Source of the DNA: Halobacteriovorax marinus SJ
Lineage (GTDB): Bacteria; Bdellovibrionota; Bacteriovoracia; Bacteriovoracales; Bacteriovoracaceae
Length of the DNA stretch: 64,000 nt
Assembly: GCF_000210915.2 (NCBI RefSeq)
Contig: NC_016620.1
Coordinates: forward strand, 2,728,001-2,792,000
Direction: 5' to 3'
Position numbers and translations under genes: made by a program. Below the pieces are notes generated by a model that was not told the DNA's origin, did no database searches, and worked only from the letters and a program-made list of their open reading frames with translations. This document shows positions 47,428-53,392 of the stretch, one piece after another; position 1 is the first letter of the stretch; each line of letters begins with the position of its first letter.

Positions 47428-47977
47428 TGATAAATTTACCTTCACGAACAAATTGGCAATTCTTCCCATCAAAGAGAACAATTGTAGATGAGCGTCCAGA
47501 ACAATTAGTGCTTATTCTTTCTACAAACTCTTCACCCGGAAGATTCTTTCTGAAGAATTCTTTCGCCATCTCTTGCTCAGTAATGGGCTCTTCACCAGTT
47601 AGGTTGAGACTAGTTGAGGTTACAGGTCCTTTTACCTTTTCAAAAATTGCTGCCAGCTCTGGTGTGTCCATACATCGAATTGAGATATACTCACTCTCCT
47701 GGCATATCCATTTAGGTAAATCTCTCTTTGCCCAAACCTTAGGCAGACCTATTGTCGACTCTAATGTAAAGTACTTCTCAAGCCACTGTTTGGTAATATT
47801 CTTGGGAAGATCGATAAGATCTTCAATCATTTCATAATTTTTAAAAACAATACTTAGAGGCTTTTTAAGAGCATGGCCCTTTATTTTAGATATTTTCTCG
47901 TAGCACTCATTTGAAAAAATATTCCCACCAATTCCCCATACAGTATCTGTAGGATAAACAAATAATTTAGATGTCAT
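47390..47977 (-). CDS. Threonylcarbamoyl-AMP synthase (Sua5/YrdC family)
   Basis: The first step of t6A37 tRNA modification. Key segments: YPTDTVWGIGG, KISKIKGHALKKPLSIVF (the KxR-type site reads KIKGHALKKP) and GPVTSTSLNLTGEEP. Length (195 aa) fits the YrdC/TsaC type. The GTG at 47989 is possible, but the ATG at 47977 overlapping the previous stop as ATGA gives the usual N-terminus. Confidence 0.9.
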   Translation of the reverse strand: MTSKLFVYPTDTVWGIGGNIFSNECYEKISKIKGHALKKPLSIVFKNYEMIEDLIDLPKNITKQWLEKYFTLESTIGLPKVWAKRDLPKWICQESEYISIRCMDTPELAAIFEKVKGPVTSTSLNLTGEEPITEQEMAKEFFRKNLPGEEFVERISTNCSGRSSTIVLFDGKNCQFVREGKFINEVKEHFELLST

Positions 47978-49146
47978 AGAATTAACCACCAGATGAACTC
48001 TTCTCTCTCTTCTCCCATTTCGATTAATTTTAATATAGGAAAAGAGCTCTCTCGTCCAGCCTCAAGTATTTGATGGTAGAAGTTTCTCTTTAATGTAAAA
48101 ATGGGCTTCTTAAGCTCAGGGTTTATATCTCCAAGATTCTTCTTGAAAATATTATCTTCAAGTAACTCTAAAATAATATAGTCGCCAGCGTATGAATCCC
48201 CATACGACTTATTAATTTGATTTACAATAAAGTCTCTAACTGTGTCATTGGGAGAGAGGTTTTCTTGAAAGACCCAGTAGTCTAAGATATTCAATTTTCT
48301 TAGAACTCTATCCTTCTCTAGCTTAGTGATAAACTTCTGTTTTTCACTATTTGATATTCTATTGATGACTGATTTCATCCAAAAAGAAGGAAATGAAATT
48401 CCATACAGAGAGGAGTTCATATTCTCTCTAATTTCATTTAATGACCAGCTCAACTCATCTGATTCAAATTCTATTTTTTCTTTCTTAGTGTCTAAGAACT
48501 GAAAATTTGTATCTAGAATACGGATTAACTTTGTGTCATTTAAACTCTCTCTTAGTAAATTAAAGAGATCGTTTACTAACGAATAGTAATGATCTCTGTT
48601 TTTAAAAGAAACAAAGTTTTGAGTGAGATCGATAGTATAAATAATTTCATTGATAGCTAGTAATTCTTTAAAGCTCTTTGCGAGTAAACCTTGGTTTCCA
48701 ATTTGTCCATAAGAGGCACTCAAAATGAGACGCTTTAAGAATACTGATTTTGATTTATTTGCCAGTGTTAATAGTTTATTAAAATAAGAATACTTCTTAA
48801 GTTTAGATTTCTCATTCTTAATTTGCTTTAGTAACGCTCGGTACTCACCTAGTTCTGAATCCTTTGAATACTTCGCATTCCAAATTTTCTCAATCTTGTC
48901 CATCTCATCTTTCTCAAATCCACGTGATTTAAGAAAGAGAAGAATGTCGCTCAAATCATTTCCTTTCTTATATGGGTAGTGAAGAATATCTAAAGTTCGC
49001 TCACTAAAAGATGGACTACATTTCTTAATAAATGGCTTGAGTTCCTCTCCTAGAAGAAAATCAGACTTGGCCATTGCTAGAACAAGTTGGATATTAAATT
49101 CATTTTTAAACTTACAATTTTCTGGATCAGGAATATTTGTTAACAA
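47974..49146 (-). CDS. Unknown helical protein; probable downstream half of a split gene
   Basis: Not recognised: mostly helical, Lys/Glu/Leu-rich. As an independent gene it must use a TTG (49146) with a distant GAGG. The same frame stays open upstream for a further 18 codons or so (ISPVTNEFYNIAFR and so on), through the intergenic gap to an A10 tract in the end of the preceding gene. With one extra A (or a -1 shift) that gene and this one form a single 771-aa protein. The extra segment reads like genuine protein, so I regard this as the periplasmic half of that product. It overlaps the Sua5 gene by ATGA. Confidence 0.7.
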   Translation of the reverse strand: MLTNIPDPENCKFKNEFNIQLVLAMAKSDFLLGEELKPFIKKCSPSFSERTLDILHYPYKKGNDLSDILLFLKSRGFEKDEMDKIEKIWNAKYSKDSELGEYRALLKQIKNEKSKLKKYSYFNKLLTLANKSKSVFLKRLILSASYGQIGNQGLLAKSFKELLAINEIIYTIDLTQNFVSFKNRDHYYSLVNDLFNLLRESLNDTKLIRILDTNFQFLDTKKEKIEFESDELSWSLNEIRENMNSSLYGISFPSFWMKSVINRISNSEKQKFITKLEKDRVLRKLNILDYWVFQENLSPNDTVRDFIVNQINKSYGDSYAGDYIILELLEDNIFKKNLGDINPELKKPIFTLKRNFYHQILEAGRESSFPILKLIEMGEEREEFIWWLIL

Positions 49147-49199
49147 TACAGCGAGTCCCTCTCCGGAGACTCGAAATGCAATATTGTAAAATTCATTTG

Positions 49200-50288
49200 T
49201 TACGGGAGATATTTCAAAGAAACTTTTTTTTTTAGATCATTTGAAAATTGTGCTTGAGCATTTACCGATTGGATAAAAGGATTTCCTATCCTAACGACTT
49301 CACTATTTAAGATATTTGTAAAATAGTAATAAGCACCTGAGGCAATGATTCCAATTAAAAGGACTAGAACATAAAAGAGATAACGATCGTTTCTCTGTGG
49401 TTTATTCTTTTTCTTAACTTTACGCTTCTTATCTGGAGAAGCTTTCTTTTTTGAAGACTTCTTCTGAGAACTGGCTACGTTAGCTTTTTTTTTTACTGGT
49501 TCTTCGAAAGCTGCTTCAGGAAGTTCTGGGGTAACATCTTCCTTGACCAAAGGAGGCTCAGAGAAAACAATTTCACCTGAACTATCTTGTACAGAATTCA
49601 TATCGAAACTAGGATCTGTAGCATCAGGGTCAAACTCTTCTTGCTCAACAGGAGCAGCAGCACTAACTGGACCACCCATATCTGGGTACTCTAGATCATC
49701 ACCACAAGGCATCTTCCCCTCTTCATCATGACCGGGCTCTTGAGCCTCTACATGAGCGTTCATTTGAACAGGTGGATTCTTTGGAGGTGTACTAACTGCT
49801 GGCTTACTTACAGGAGTTGGATTACTCTCAACCATTCCCATATCTGGATACTCTAAATCTTCGTTACTTGGAGTGGCCACCTGATCATCACCTGCAGGCT
49901 CAGCACTCCCCCCCATATCTGGATAGTCTAGATCTCCCCCCTCTGGTACAGCTGGACTCTCATCGAGGTCTAGCTCAATCGCTGGTGGAGGACTATCCTT
50001 GGGCATTGTATTTGGATTAAGTGATCCTGTATTCTCTGTTGGTTGTGATAAATTAGCCGTTAATACATTTGGTGCTTCAGAAATTGGATTAAAGCCCTGA
50101 GGAATATCTCCTCTTACATATTTATCGATTAAGTTATTCTCTTTAATTAAAATCCAATATCCGTTTCCACTTGTAACTTCATCCTCAGGAGTTAAAGAGC
50201 CTTTATCGATAAACTCAATAATCTTCTGCTTAGTTACTGGACCTAAGATTTGTTTATTTTTAGTTCTAATTAACCAACATTTTTCCAT
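49200..50288 (-). CDS. GYF-like / acidic linker / one-membrane-helix protein; upstream half of a split gene
   Basis: Residues 1-60 are a GYF_2-type module (CWLIRTKNKQILGPVTKQK, GYWILI). A long Pro/Glu/Asp-rich region (about 65-265) contains three copies of DL-D/E-YPDMG (119-126, 144-151, 198-205). A lysine-rich stop-transfer stretch (about 276-298) precedes a membrane helix (303-323). The periplasmic part breaks off after 39 residues at an A10 tract (KKK, 353-355), followed by only VSLKYLP. Another A10 tract encodes KKK at 266-268. It lies 7 bp after mlaD, so belongs to the Mla operon. The cytoplasmic GYF module and membrane anchor suggest an adaptor. Confidence 0.85.
   Translation of the reverse strand: MEKCWLIRTKNKQILGPVTKQKIIEFIDKGSLTPEDEVTSGNGYWILIKENNLIDKYVRGDIPQGFNPISEAPNVLTANLSQPTENTGSLNPNTMPKDSPPPAIELDLDESPAVPEGGDLDYPDMGGSAEPAGDDQVATPSNEDLEYPDMGMVESNPTPVSKPAVSTPPKNPPVQMNAHVEAQEPGHDEEGKMPCGDDLEYPDMGGPVSAAAPVEQEEFDPDATDPSFDMNSVQDSSGEIVFSEPPLVKEDVTPELPEAAFEEPVKKKANVASSQKKSSKKKASPDKKRKVKKKNKPQRNDRYLFYVLVLLIGIIASGAYYYFTNILNSEVVRIGNPFIQSVNAQAQFSNDLKKKVSLKYLP
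49224..49233 (-). other. A10 slippery tract at the gene break
   Basis: Ten A in a row on the minus strand (CTA AAA AAA AAA G). A -1 shift or insertion of one A here changes the frame from VSLKYLP-stop to SFFEISPVTNEFYN and on into the 390-aa ORF. Such runs cause ribosomal and RNA-polymerase slippage and are also typical sites of real indels and of sequencing error. Confidence 0.75.
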
Positions 50289-50295
50289 TTCTTAC

Positions 50296-51666
50296 CTATA
50301 AGAAAAAACCTATAAGGCCCTTTAAATCCTCATCATTAAATCTTAGACCTAAACTAAAGAGAGCTGATCTTTCTTTAGTTGCAAGGTCTACACCTGAAAC
50401 TTTTCCGTAGAACACATTCCACAATTGTACTTCTGTAGAAAGTCTTAGATTTGGACCAAGCCCTGATCTATAGTCAAATACATCAAGAGAGAATCTTGTT
50501 GCGCCATTGAATATGTCATAATCAATACCAGCACCACCAGTAGACTCGATGATCCCACCACGTACATAGAGATCGTGTAGCTTTCTACCAATCTGTACAT
50601 CAAATCTAAAAACATCTTTCTTTTTAACTTTCTCAGTTTCTGTTGTCGTAACACCATTAACGATGCGAACAGTTTCTTTTTCGCTCTCAGGCCCGTAGTT
50701 AGAAGAACTAAGACCTAAAATATAGAACCTTTCTGGTGATGGGAAAATTCGAAGAGAACCACTAGTGACACTTCCCTCTTCAGTTCCTGCTCCCATATAA
50801 CCTGATAGCTCTGTTCTAATGTCGCTTACTCGACCAACAATTTTATTAACACTTGAGAGAGTTTGCTTTACTTCATCGGCAATCTCTTCTTCGACTAAAA
50901 TTTTACCTAATGTTCCTTTACCAACTTTAATATCAGCAACAAGATCTTTCAGGTCAGCAGTCATAGCATCAGCATTTGCCAAAATCTTTCTTAAGTCCTT
51001 CATTGCAGAGTCTTGCTCTTGATCATCTGTATGATAAGCAATTTGTTCAGAGAATCTCTCTAGGTTTGCGATGAGATTATTCATCTTTTCTTCGTTACCT
51101 TTAATCACTGTTTTCAAGGAGTCAGTTGCAATACGAGCATTCTCTGCAACAACAGCGAAGTCATTAAGAATTCTCTTCACAGGAGAAACTTCTCCTTCAG
51201 GCGAAATAGACTCTCTTAAAGTCTTCATCATGACCTTTACATCTTTTAAAACATCACTGGCATCTTTAACTAATTTCTCAACTCCAGCTCCTTCGTCAGA
51301 AACAATGAACGAGTTTGCAGTTAAGCGCTCTTGTGACTCACCCATTTGAATTTGAATATACTTGTCTCCAAGAAAGCCAACTGTCTTAACTTGTAATTTA
51401 GAATCTTTTACGACAATTACATTTTCTAAAACTTCAAAAGTGATTAAAGCTTGATTACCTTGTAATTCAATTTTCTTTATTCTACCGGCATTTATACCTG
51501 CAATTTTAATTGGTGTTTTAGGAAAGATTCCAGAGGCATCTGTAACAATAGTTCTATATGTTACATACTCTCCGAACCCAGATTGATTAGATGTAATTTT
51601 TAAAGACATATAAGCAACCATCACCATTGTAGCGATGGCCATTAGTCCTATTTTAAATTCATTCAT
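50296..51666 (-). CDS. mlaD: MlaD/MCE-family lipid transport protein
   Basis: A periplasmic, inner-membrane-anchored MCE protein that carries lipids between membranes. A single N-terminal membrane helix (about 5-25) precedes the MCE domain (about 38-115: ASGIFPKTPIKIAGINAGRI, TVGFLGDKYIQI), then a helical region (about 125-270) and a C-terminal beta-rich part (about 290-456) ending in aromatic-rich strands, which is longer than in E. coli MlaD (183 aa) and may reach the outer membrane. It follows mlaF by 12 bp. Confidence 0.92.
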   Translation of the reverse strand: MNEFKIGLMAIATMVMVAYMSLKITSNQSGFGEYVTYRTIVTDASGIFPKTPIKIAGINAGRIKKIELQGNQALITFEVLENVIVVKDSKLQVKTVGFLGDKYIQIQMGESQERLTANSFIVSDEGAGVEKLVKDASDVLKDVKVMMKTLRESISPEGEVSPVKRILNDFAVVAENARIATDSLKTVIKGNEEKMNNLIANLERFSEQIAYHTDDQEQDSAMKDLRKILANADAMTADLKDLVADIKVGKGTLGKILVEEEIADEVKQTLSSVNKIVGRVSDIRTELSGYMGAGTEEGSVTSGSLRIFPSPERFYILGLSSSNYGPESEKETVRIVNGVTTTETEKVKKKDVFRFDVQIGRKLHDLYVRGGIIESTGGAGIDYDIFNGATRFSLDVFDYRSGLGPNLRLSTEVQLWNVFYGKVSGVDLATKERSALFSLGLRFNDEDLKGLIGFFL

Positions 51667-51678
51667 GGCTTATATTTC

Positions 51679-52431
51679 TCATAAATTTATAAACTCCTGC
51701 ACAAGAGGATTTGTTGATTTTTTAAATTCTTCCACAGGTAAGTATTCAACAATATTACCACGATCTAAAAAAGCTACAAAATCTGAAATACGAAGGGTAG
51801 CTTTTACATCGTGAGAGATAATAATTGATGTCATGCCTCGGTCACTATTCTTTTCGGCCGTATCCACAATCAAGTCATTGACCATTTTTGTCGTAATTGG
51901 ATCTAGACCAGTTGTTGGTTCGTCATACAACATTATATGAGGATTTAGAGCAAGCCCTCTAGCTAGACCTACTCTCTTTCTCATCCCTCCAGATAATTCT
52001 GAGGGAAGTCCTTCAAAAGAAACCTCTTTAATTCCCACTGAAAGCAGTAGGTCTTTTGACTTAGAAATAATCTCTTCATTCCCAAGCTTCGTGAATTCTC
52101 GCATAGGAAAAGCGACATTTTCCACAGCACTCATGGAGTCAAAGAGGGCAGCATATTGAAAGAGCATTCCAAAATTTTGCCTAAACTCTCTTAGCTTCAT
52201 TGGATCAAGATTTTTTAAATTACTTCCAAGAACCTCAACCACTCCACTTGTCGGCTGATGAAGCCCAAGAATATGTTTTAAGAGAGTTGACTTTCCAGCT
52301 CCTGAAAAACCTAGAATTGTTGTAATTTTATTTTTAGGGATATCAAAATTTAAATTATTAAGTACTGTATGCTTACCAAATACTTTGGTTAGATTAGAAA
52401 TTCTTACGGCAGGATTTTCAAAACTCAACAT
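51679..52431 (-). CDS. mlaF: MlaF, ABC ATPase of the Mla system
   Basis: Walker A GFSGAGKST, signature LSGGMRKRVGLARGLA, Walker B IMLYDEPTTGLDP and the His-switch IIISHD are all intact. 250 aa; powers phospholipid movement with MlaE and MlaD. The start overlaps the mlaE stop by one base (TAATG). Confidence 0.95.
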   Translation of the reverse strand: MLSFENPAVRISNLTKVFGKHTVLNNLNFDIPKNKITTILGFSGAGKSTLLKHILGLHQPTSGVVEVLGSNLKNLDPMKLREFRQNFGMLFQYAALFDSMSAVENVAFPMREFTKLGNEEIISKSKDLLLSVGIKEVSFEGLPSELSGGMRKRVGLARGLALNPHIMLYDEPTTGLDPITTKMVNDLIVDTAEKNSDRGMTSIIISHDVKATLRISDFVAFLDRGNIVEYLPVEEFKKSTNPLVQEFINL

Positions 52432-53231
52432 TATAGGACCTGCACCAAGAAAGAGGTTAAGAAGTAATCTAGAACAAGTACTGAAATCATTCCCCAGACC
52501 ACAGCGAGGTTTGTTCCCTTCCCTACTCCTTCAGCTCCTTTAGTTACATTAAAACCAAAGTACGTTCCAATAACAGCAATGACAAAACCAAAGACAGTGG
52601 CCTTAATGATTCCCTGGACAATATCTCCAACGAACATAAAGTCGCCTAACTTTGAGAGATACATCGTTTCATCAATTAGAAGCGCTACTGTACCAACAAT
52701 ATATGAGCCTACATTTCCAACAAATAAGAAAACAATACTGAGCATTGGTAGAGAGAGAGTCGCCGCCAAAATTCTTGGAACAGCTAAGTACTGATAGCTA
52801 TCAATACCCATAACTTCGAGAGCATCTACTTGTTCTGTCACTTTCATCGTTCCAATTTGAGCGGCCATAGCTGCACCAGCTCGACCCGCAACGATGAGTC
52901 CACTCAATACGGGAGCCAGCTCCTTAGCCAAAGAGATAGCAACAACTGAACCAACTAGTGAATCGACATTAATTAATTTAAAGCCGAAGTAAGTTTGGTA
53001 GGCCATAACCATACCCGTAAAACTTCCGGCCAATGTAATGATAAAAAGTGATTTATTTCCGATAAAGTAGAACTGCTCGGCGAAGAGCTTAAATCGATAT
53101 GGAGGCTTGAATACCCAGTAGAAGAATTTGAATATAAATCTGCAAATGCTACCTAGACCTTGGACGTTTTCCATTGTCATAGAACCAATTGCTTCTACAA
53201 ATTTTCTTATCTGATTTGTGATTAAGACCAT
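52431..53231 (-). CDS. mlaE: MlaE, permease of the Mla system
   Basis: A MlaE-family permease (DUF140) with five to six membrane helices. The hallmark segment is KELAPVLSGLIVAGRAGAAMAAQIGTM, with EQVDALEVMGID after it. The frame opens at a TTG at 53309; the ATG at 53231 gives the usual family length (about 266 aa), but the ribosome-binding site is weak in both cases. It heads the mlaE-mlaF-mlaD-GYF operon. In E. coli the Mla system keeps outer-membrane lipid asymmetry; direction of transport here is not known. Confidence 0.93.
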   Translation of the reverse strand: MVLITNQIRKFVEAIGSMTMENVQGLGSICRFIFKFFYWVFKPPYRFKLFAEQFYFIGNKSLFIITLAGSFTGMVMAYQTYFGFKLINVDSLVGSVVAISLAKELAPVLSGLIVAGRAGAAMAAQIGTMKVTEQVDALEVMGIDSYQYLAVPRILAATLSLPMLSIVFLFVGNVGSYIVGTVALLIDETMYLSKLGDFMFVGDIVQGIIKATVFGFVIAVIGTYFGFNVTKGAEGVGKGTNLAVVWGMISVLVLDYFLTSFLVQVL

Positions 53232-53392
53232 TACTTGAGCTATTCCGTCGGCTAAATAAAGTATCAATTTTATATAATATTTAAAATTGTAAACGATCAA
53301 ACACACCAAGGCGAATAATTATGCGAAATTTTTAAATTTATTAGCAAAAAATTCCGTTTAGTAAGCTGATAATCTAAAAAAAGGCCGAATAA

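Follow-up and report, generated by a model that had tools for sequence, protein, structure and literature searches.

Two slippery poly-A tracts in a single gene beside the Mla genes of Halobacteriovorax marinus SJ, and the three proteins that it probably encodes

What does a gene really produce when its reading frame closes just behind a run of ten A's while a long open frame continues in the -1 register? The question is raised by two adjacent ORFs of Halobacteriovorax marinus SJ, located in a window of 64,000 nucleotides (contig NC_016620.1, 2,728,001 to 2,792,000; coordinates below are those of the window, and all features located by them lie on the minus strand). The upstream, zero-frame ORF (49200..50288) encodes 362 amino acids and comprises a GYF_2-like N-terminus, acidic and proline-rich linkers with DLxYPD repeats, a Lys-rich stretch, one membrane helix and a short tail. 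Its N-terminus is conserved in all 30 members aligned. The GYF_2-like domain (residues 5-49, 50142..50276; Pfam GYF_2, PF14237, E=7e-4) scores 19.7 bits with the ORF and 23.9 bits with the domain alone, against a Pfam gathering cut-off of 25.8, and a match at E<=0.001 is found in 8 of 30 relatives. The helix (residues about 304-323, 49320..49379) is a hydrophobic segment of the translation and has the same counterpart in relatives. It is followed by SVNAQAQ (49248..49268), a motif resembling a signal peptidase site of the type AxA/Q, and then by the tract referred to here as site 2 (49224..49233), where the codons CTA AAA AAA AAA GTT contain exactly ten A's. The TAA that would end the short form (49200..49202) is located seven codons past the KKK of site 2.

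The -1 frame, on the other hand, is open from 49236 down to a stop at 47976-47974, and these 420 codons (47974..49236) are predicted from the sequence, its relatives and a structural model to encode a periplasmic, mostly helical domain with two conserved Cys. Within this frame lies an ORF of 390 amino acids, the sole start of which is a TTG (49144..49146) 53 bp past the upstream stop. The original prediction proposed that the two ORFs are one 771-aa protein split at the A10 tract, with a -1 frame free of stops through the 53-bp gap and a TTG as the only start of the downstream ORF; its coordinates all hold, and the same junction is present at a tract of A9-A14 in 71 genomes of the class. The -1 frame between site 2 and the TTG looks coding, because its differences from two congeners are found mostly at third codon positions (18/14/9 and 17/13/6 at codon positions 3/1/2). 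Moreover, the downstream domain has a nearly invariant Gly that is encoded before the TTG at 49146, and this TTG is therefore probably not a real start. Counting both strands, the 3.44-Mb genome has just ten runs of A10 or longer, two of which fall within the present gene. Considering this rarity together with the presence of a tract at the homologous place in 71 genomes, the A10 at the frame break is, judged by its distribution, far from chance.

The downstream part, and then its profile, was searched against 129 genomes of the class, giving matches in 88, among them at least one weak, non-homologous match (G059); the matched regions were read in all frames, and 71 joined loci were counted. 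In every one of the 71, a tract of A9-A14 is located where the N-terminal/transmembrane and the periplasmic parts meet. In 59 of them, which represent 25 genera by the genus labels of the genome set, the downstream domain is read in the -1 frame (A9 in nine genomes, A10 in 41, A11 in five, A12 in three and A14 in one). In the remaining 12 genomes the frames are already joined and an A9 or A10 tract is still present, and a +1 relation at site 2 was found in none of the 71. Tract length and codon phase both vary while the -1 relation stays, so compensating indels must have occurred in the flanks. KKK occurs 170 times at other places in these loci and is encoded by nine A's in 38 of them, a count that takes in the second tract described below. 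The tree of the downstream domain, a quick one with some long branches, implies at least nine switches between the -1 and the in-frame state, and well-supported branches force six of these. Beyond site 2 the zero-frame tails have a median of 3 codons, against 5-9 at random positions, which we regard as supportive only, since the third frame closes early too. Many of the relatives are metagenome assemblies with one genome per species, and the length of an individual tract may be wrong by one; the conclusion relies on the frame relation having one direction across many genomes and on no single genome.

The second tract, site 1 (49485..49494), consists of ten A's in the zero frame (PVKKKAN) and is located before the membrane helix, roughly 70-110 codons upstream of site 2 across the loci. 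A tract of A9-A12 is found at the same place in 36 of 71 loci, and in 34 of these 36 (13 genera) the frame runs straight through it. If one A were added there in SJ, a TAA (49480..49482) would follow one codon after the KKK and end a 269-aa product with KKKS. Among the 34 loci the -1 frame meets a stop after a median of 0 codons (0 codons in 18 loci) and the +1 frame after a median of 2. Both off-frames are shut within 6 codons of site 1 in 32 of the 34 loci, compared with 116 of 611 ordinary runs of A4-A8 in these genes. Four genomes (G076, G077, G097 and G123) have the -1 frame change at site 1 and not at site 2; in three of them (G076, G077 and G123) no more than A8 is left of site 2. Four other genomes (G124, G029, G089 and G112) have a +1 relation at site 1, which means one A too many or the need for a two-A insertion, and which is either an assembly error or real variation of tract length. 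Two observations bear on selection: the downstream frame is intact in the 59 genomes with the -1 relation at about 20% protein identity, and stops hug site 1. Taken together, they indicate that an alternative product of this gene is kept by selection.

Relatives in which the gene is built differently act as natural controls. Homologues that end after the helix and do not carry the downstream domain (G004, G007, G016, G018 and G060) contain no run of A8 or longer inside the gene, and a junction tract is absent where the downstream domain is a separate gene (G119, G023, G075, G074 and G109). Conversely, there are fused genes that do not carry the site 2 tract (G126, G127, G041 and G071), and the association between tract and domain is therefore strong but not absolute. 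The product of the separate downstream gene starts with a signal peptide, such as MIKPILFCLLLLSTTIQAQ of G119, whose last residues are AQ or similar; this points to a periplasmic domain and supports the reading of AxAQ as a signal peptidase site. In 64 of the 71 joined loci AQ precedes site 2 by 3-9 residues. The motif lies about 20 residues past the helix, a long distance for a signal peptidase site. Signal peptidase I may free the periplasmic domain at AxA/Q. No match to the downstream domain was detected outside the class in 369 genomes of the phylum, and none in Pfam, and matches to PDB sequences were obtained only at E > 0.02. An AlphaFold2 model made with 8 sequences (mean pLDDT 76.7, pTM 0.74) predicts a short beta segment followed by a helical array, for which Foldseek returned no solved structure at E <= 0.001.

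Considering the gene as a whole, it is probable that a single gene with two programmed slippery poly-A tracts gives rise to three proteins; what the comparison establishes, at the level of sequence, is the conserved architecture, the tracts, the frame relations and the off-frame stops. According to this proposal, RNA polymerase would add an A in a fraction of the mRNAs at tracts of nine or more A's. With an extra A at site 1, translation would end at once and leave a soluble GYF-like protein of 269 aa with the end EEPVKKKS; an unslipped mRNA would be read to the stop just past site 2, giving the membrane-anchored protein of 362 aa; an extra A at site 2 would join on the periplasmic helical domain, giving 771 aa with the predicted junction peptide SNDLKKKSFFEIS. 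If signal peptidase I cuts at AxA/Q, the 362- and 771-aa forms would leave the same membrane stub, and slippage at site 2 would set only the amount of the periplasmic domain. In species where the default frame is already open, the same slippage would trim the long form instead. The short anchored form and the long form with a periplasmic domain, both foreseen by the original prediction for slippage at the A10 in the Mla operon, are strongly supported by the class-wide comparison. That picture was incomplete in three respects: first, the second A10 (49494-49485) predicts a third, soluble product; second, the AxAQ motif between helix and tract, which suggests that the domain is cut free, was missed; third, the agent of slippage was left open, as taken up below. 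Some features weigh against the three-product proposal, namely that site 1 reaches A9 or more in only about half of the loci, that fused genes exist which do not carry the site 2 tract, that four genomes have the +1 relation at site 1, and that AxAQ is placed so far past the helix.

The main rival is sliding of the ribosome on AAA codons. Such sliding, or a programmed -1 frameshift of the ribosome at the tract, would yield the same products from a uniform mRNA; a slippery A_AAA_AAA is contained in every tract, and bacterial ribosomes are able to slide on AAA runs (PMC4363877). Seven A's would be enough for a ribosomal shift, but the shortest tract has nine, and the codon phase varies. The stimulators of such shifts are also wanting: no stimulatory hairpin was detected downstream of site 2 (mean fold z -0.12, 59 loci), a Shine-Dalgarno-like sequence is present in 13 of 59 loci, and the strong E. 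coli heptamer A_AAA_AAG stands in the zero frame in 3 of 59, whereas the weaker A_AAA_AAA is there in all. The addition of A's by bacterial RNA polymerase slipping on nine A's or T's (PMC5009743) fits both the -1 relation and the absence of +1. Thus, tract length of at least nine, varied phase, lack of hairpin and Shine-Dalgarno stimulators and a Thermus-like A10 in the organism's own dnaX all favour slippage of RNA polymerase, and we consider a ribosomal mechanism unlikely. The original prediction had left the choice between the two open; slippage itself is upheld by the comparison, and the evidence now favours the polymerase.

Phase variation, in which mutation would alter the length of the tract in the DNA and so turn the long form on in some cells and off in others, has in its favour that homopolymers mutate readily, that tract length differs among species and that in-frame and -1 states both occur. 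In that case the three frame states should mix, whereas +1 at site 2 is absent from the 71 genomes, compared among species, and the stops hugging site 1 fit a fixed product; the probability of this explanation is very low. Still less credible are two genes, with the downstream ORF translated alone from the TTG at 49146 or by translational coupling. The five relatives with a separate downstream gene and its own signal peptide speak for such an arrangement, but in SJ the domain begins upstream of the TTG, the product of which would have no signal peptide; no ATG or GTG is found between site 2 and the first conserved Cys in 51 of 71 loci, and the A tract would have no reason to persist. A separate gene read from the TTG is rejected on the position of the domain start. 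Finally, a plain indel or sequencing error, named by the original prediction as the main alternative because homopolymers are error-prone and one genome alone could not exclude it, is refuted by the comparison: 59 genomes from 25 genera share the -1 relation, and their downstream frame is preserved despite the low identity.

Slippage of RNA polymerase as the source of several products has known parallels. In Thermus thermophilus dnaX, polymerase slippage on nine A/T gives tau and gamma (PMC5009743); similarly to site 1, there are nine or more A's with stops close by in both other frames, and slippage makes the shorter product. The Thermus gene has one site and encodes a DNA polymerase subunit, whereas here two sites would have opposite effects and the predicted products differ in compartment. 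The tssM1 of Citrobacter rodentium (A11) and tssM3 of Yersinia pseudotuberculosis carry a poly-A tract before an early stop in an inner-membrane protein, and of the two genes one gains its long form by slippage, the other its short form (PMC4256274). They are experimental parallels of the extending (-1) and the trimming (in-frame) states described here. Poly-A slippage is not common among tssM genes (PMC4256274), in contrast to the present tract, which is kept over the whole class and accompanied by a second tract and a putative cleavage motif. In Shigella spa13, transcriptional slippage yields 25-30% of extended product (PMC5009743) and likewise adds a C-terminal extension, but this is a plasmid-borne secretion gene encoding an unrelated protein.

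The dnaX of the present genome (G000:C1:52572-56582, ORF 885-2768) contains an A10 at codon 373, the other two frames closing 0 and 1 codons from it, and a tract of A9-A11 is kept near codon 373 in 17 of 22 class genomes looked at. This looks like the Thermus type of tau/gamma slippage, and the organism appears to use the device elsewhere too. An A10 is also located at the domain junction of a pyruvate kinase with a C-terminal ferredoxin-like domain (G000:C1:2502081-2503757, minus), and in G043 (A10) and G004 (A11) the tract is followed by the ferredoxin part in the -1 frame, which makes this gene a second candidate for conserved slippage. A membrane protein of 365 aa (G000:C1:368727-372737) that reads like a WecA-type sugar-phosphate transferase has a further A10, located 11 codons from its end.

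The gene directly follows mlaE (permease, 52431..53309; Pfam MlaE E=1.2e-72), mlaF (ABC ATPase, 51679..52431; ABC_tran E=3.3e-31) and mlaD (MCE domain, 50296..51666; MlaD E=6.5e-16), as in Mla (MCE) operons, but its product matches no Mla component. By tblastn, upstream neighbours are MlaD in 66, MlaF in 63 and MlaE in 53 of 71 loci, the last count being affected by stretches too short to reach MlaE. This gene order suggests a possible role of the protein in Mla transport. No report of the locus was found in the open-access papers searched, and neither Bdellovibrio nor Bacteriovorax is mentioned in the main text of the GeneTack survey (PMC3711429). Gene callers break this gene in two or cut it short, next to the Mla lipid-transport genes of predatory bacteria.

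What, then, would two such tracts mean for these organisms? Slippage would determine in what proportions the product of a gene next to MlaEFD is made as a cytoplasmic, a membrane and a periplasmic form. A wider reading, which we put forward tentatively and with some doubt, is that two RNA-polymerase slippage sites form a class-wide three-way compartment switch of an Mla partner, within a small set of slippage-controlled genes of the predatory Bacteriovoracia (this gene, dnaX and pyruvate kinase-ferredoxin) in which tract length would be a heritable dial of stoichiometry. Few conserved cellular genes rely on slippage of the polymerase, and most of these are single instances. In the present gene, on the one hand, a slippery tract has been kept over some 25 genera while protein identity fell to about 20%, and the same gene offers a second site of opposite logic; on the other hand, natural controls are provided by lineages already in frame and by lineages with a split gene or a lost domain, in which the tract is gone. 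Together these characteristics make slippage as a fixed setter of product ratios directly testable.
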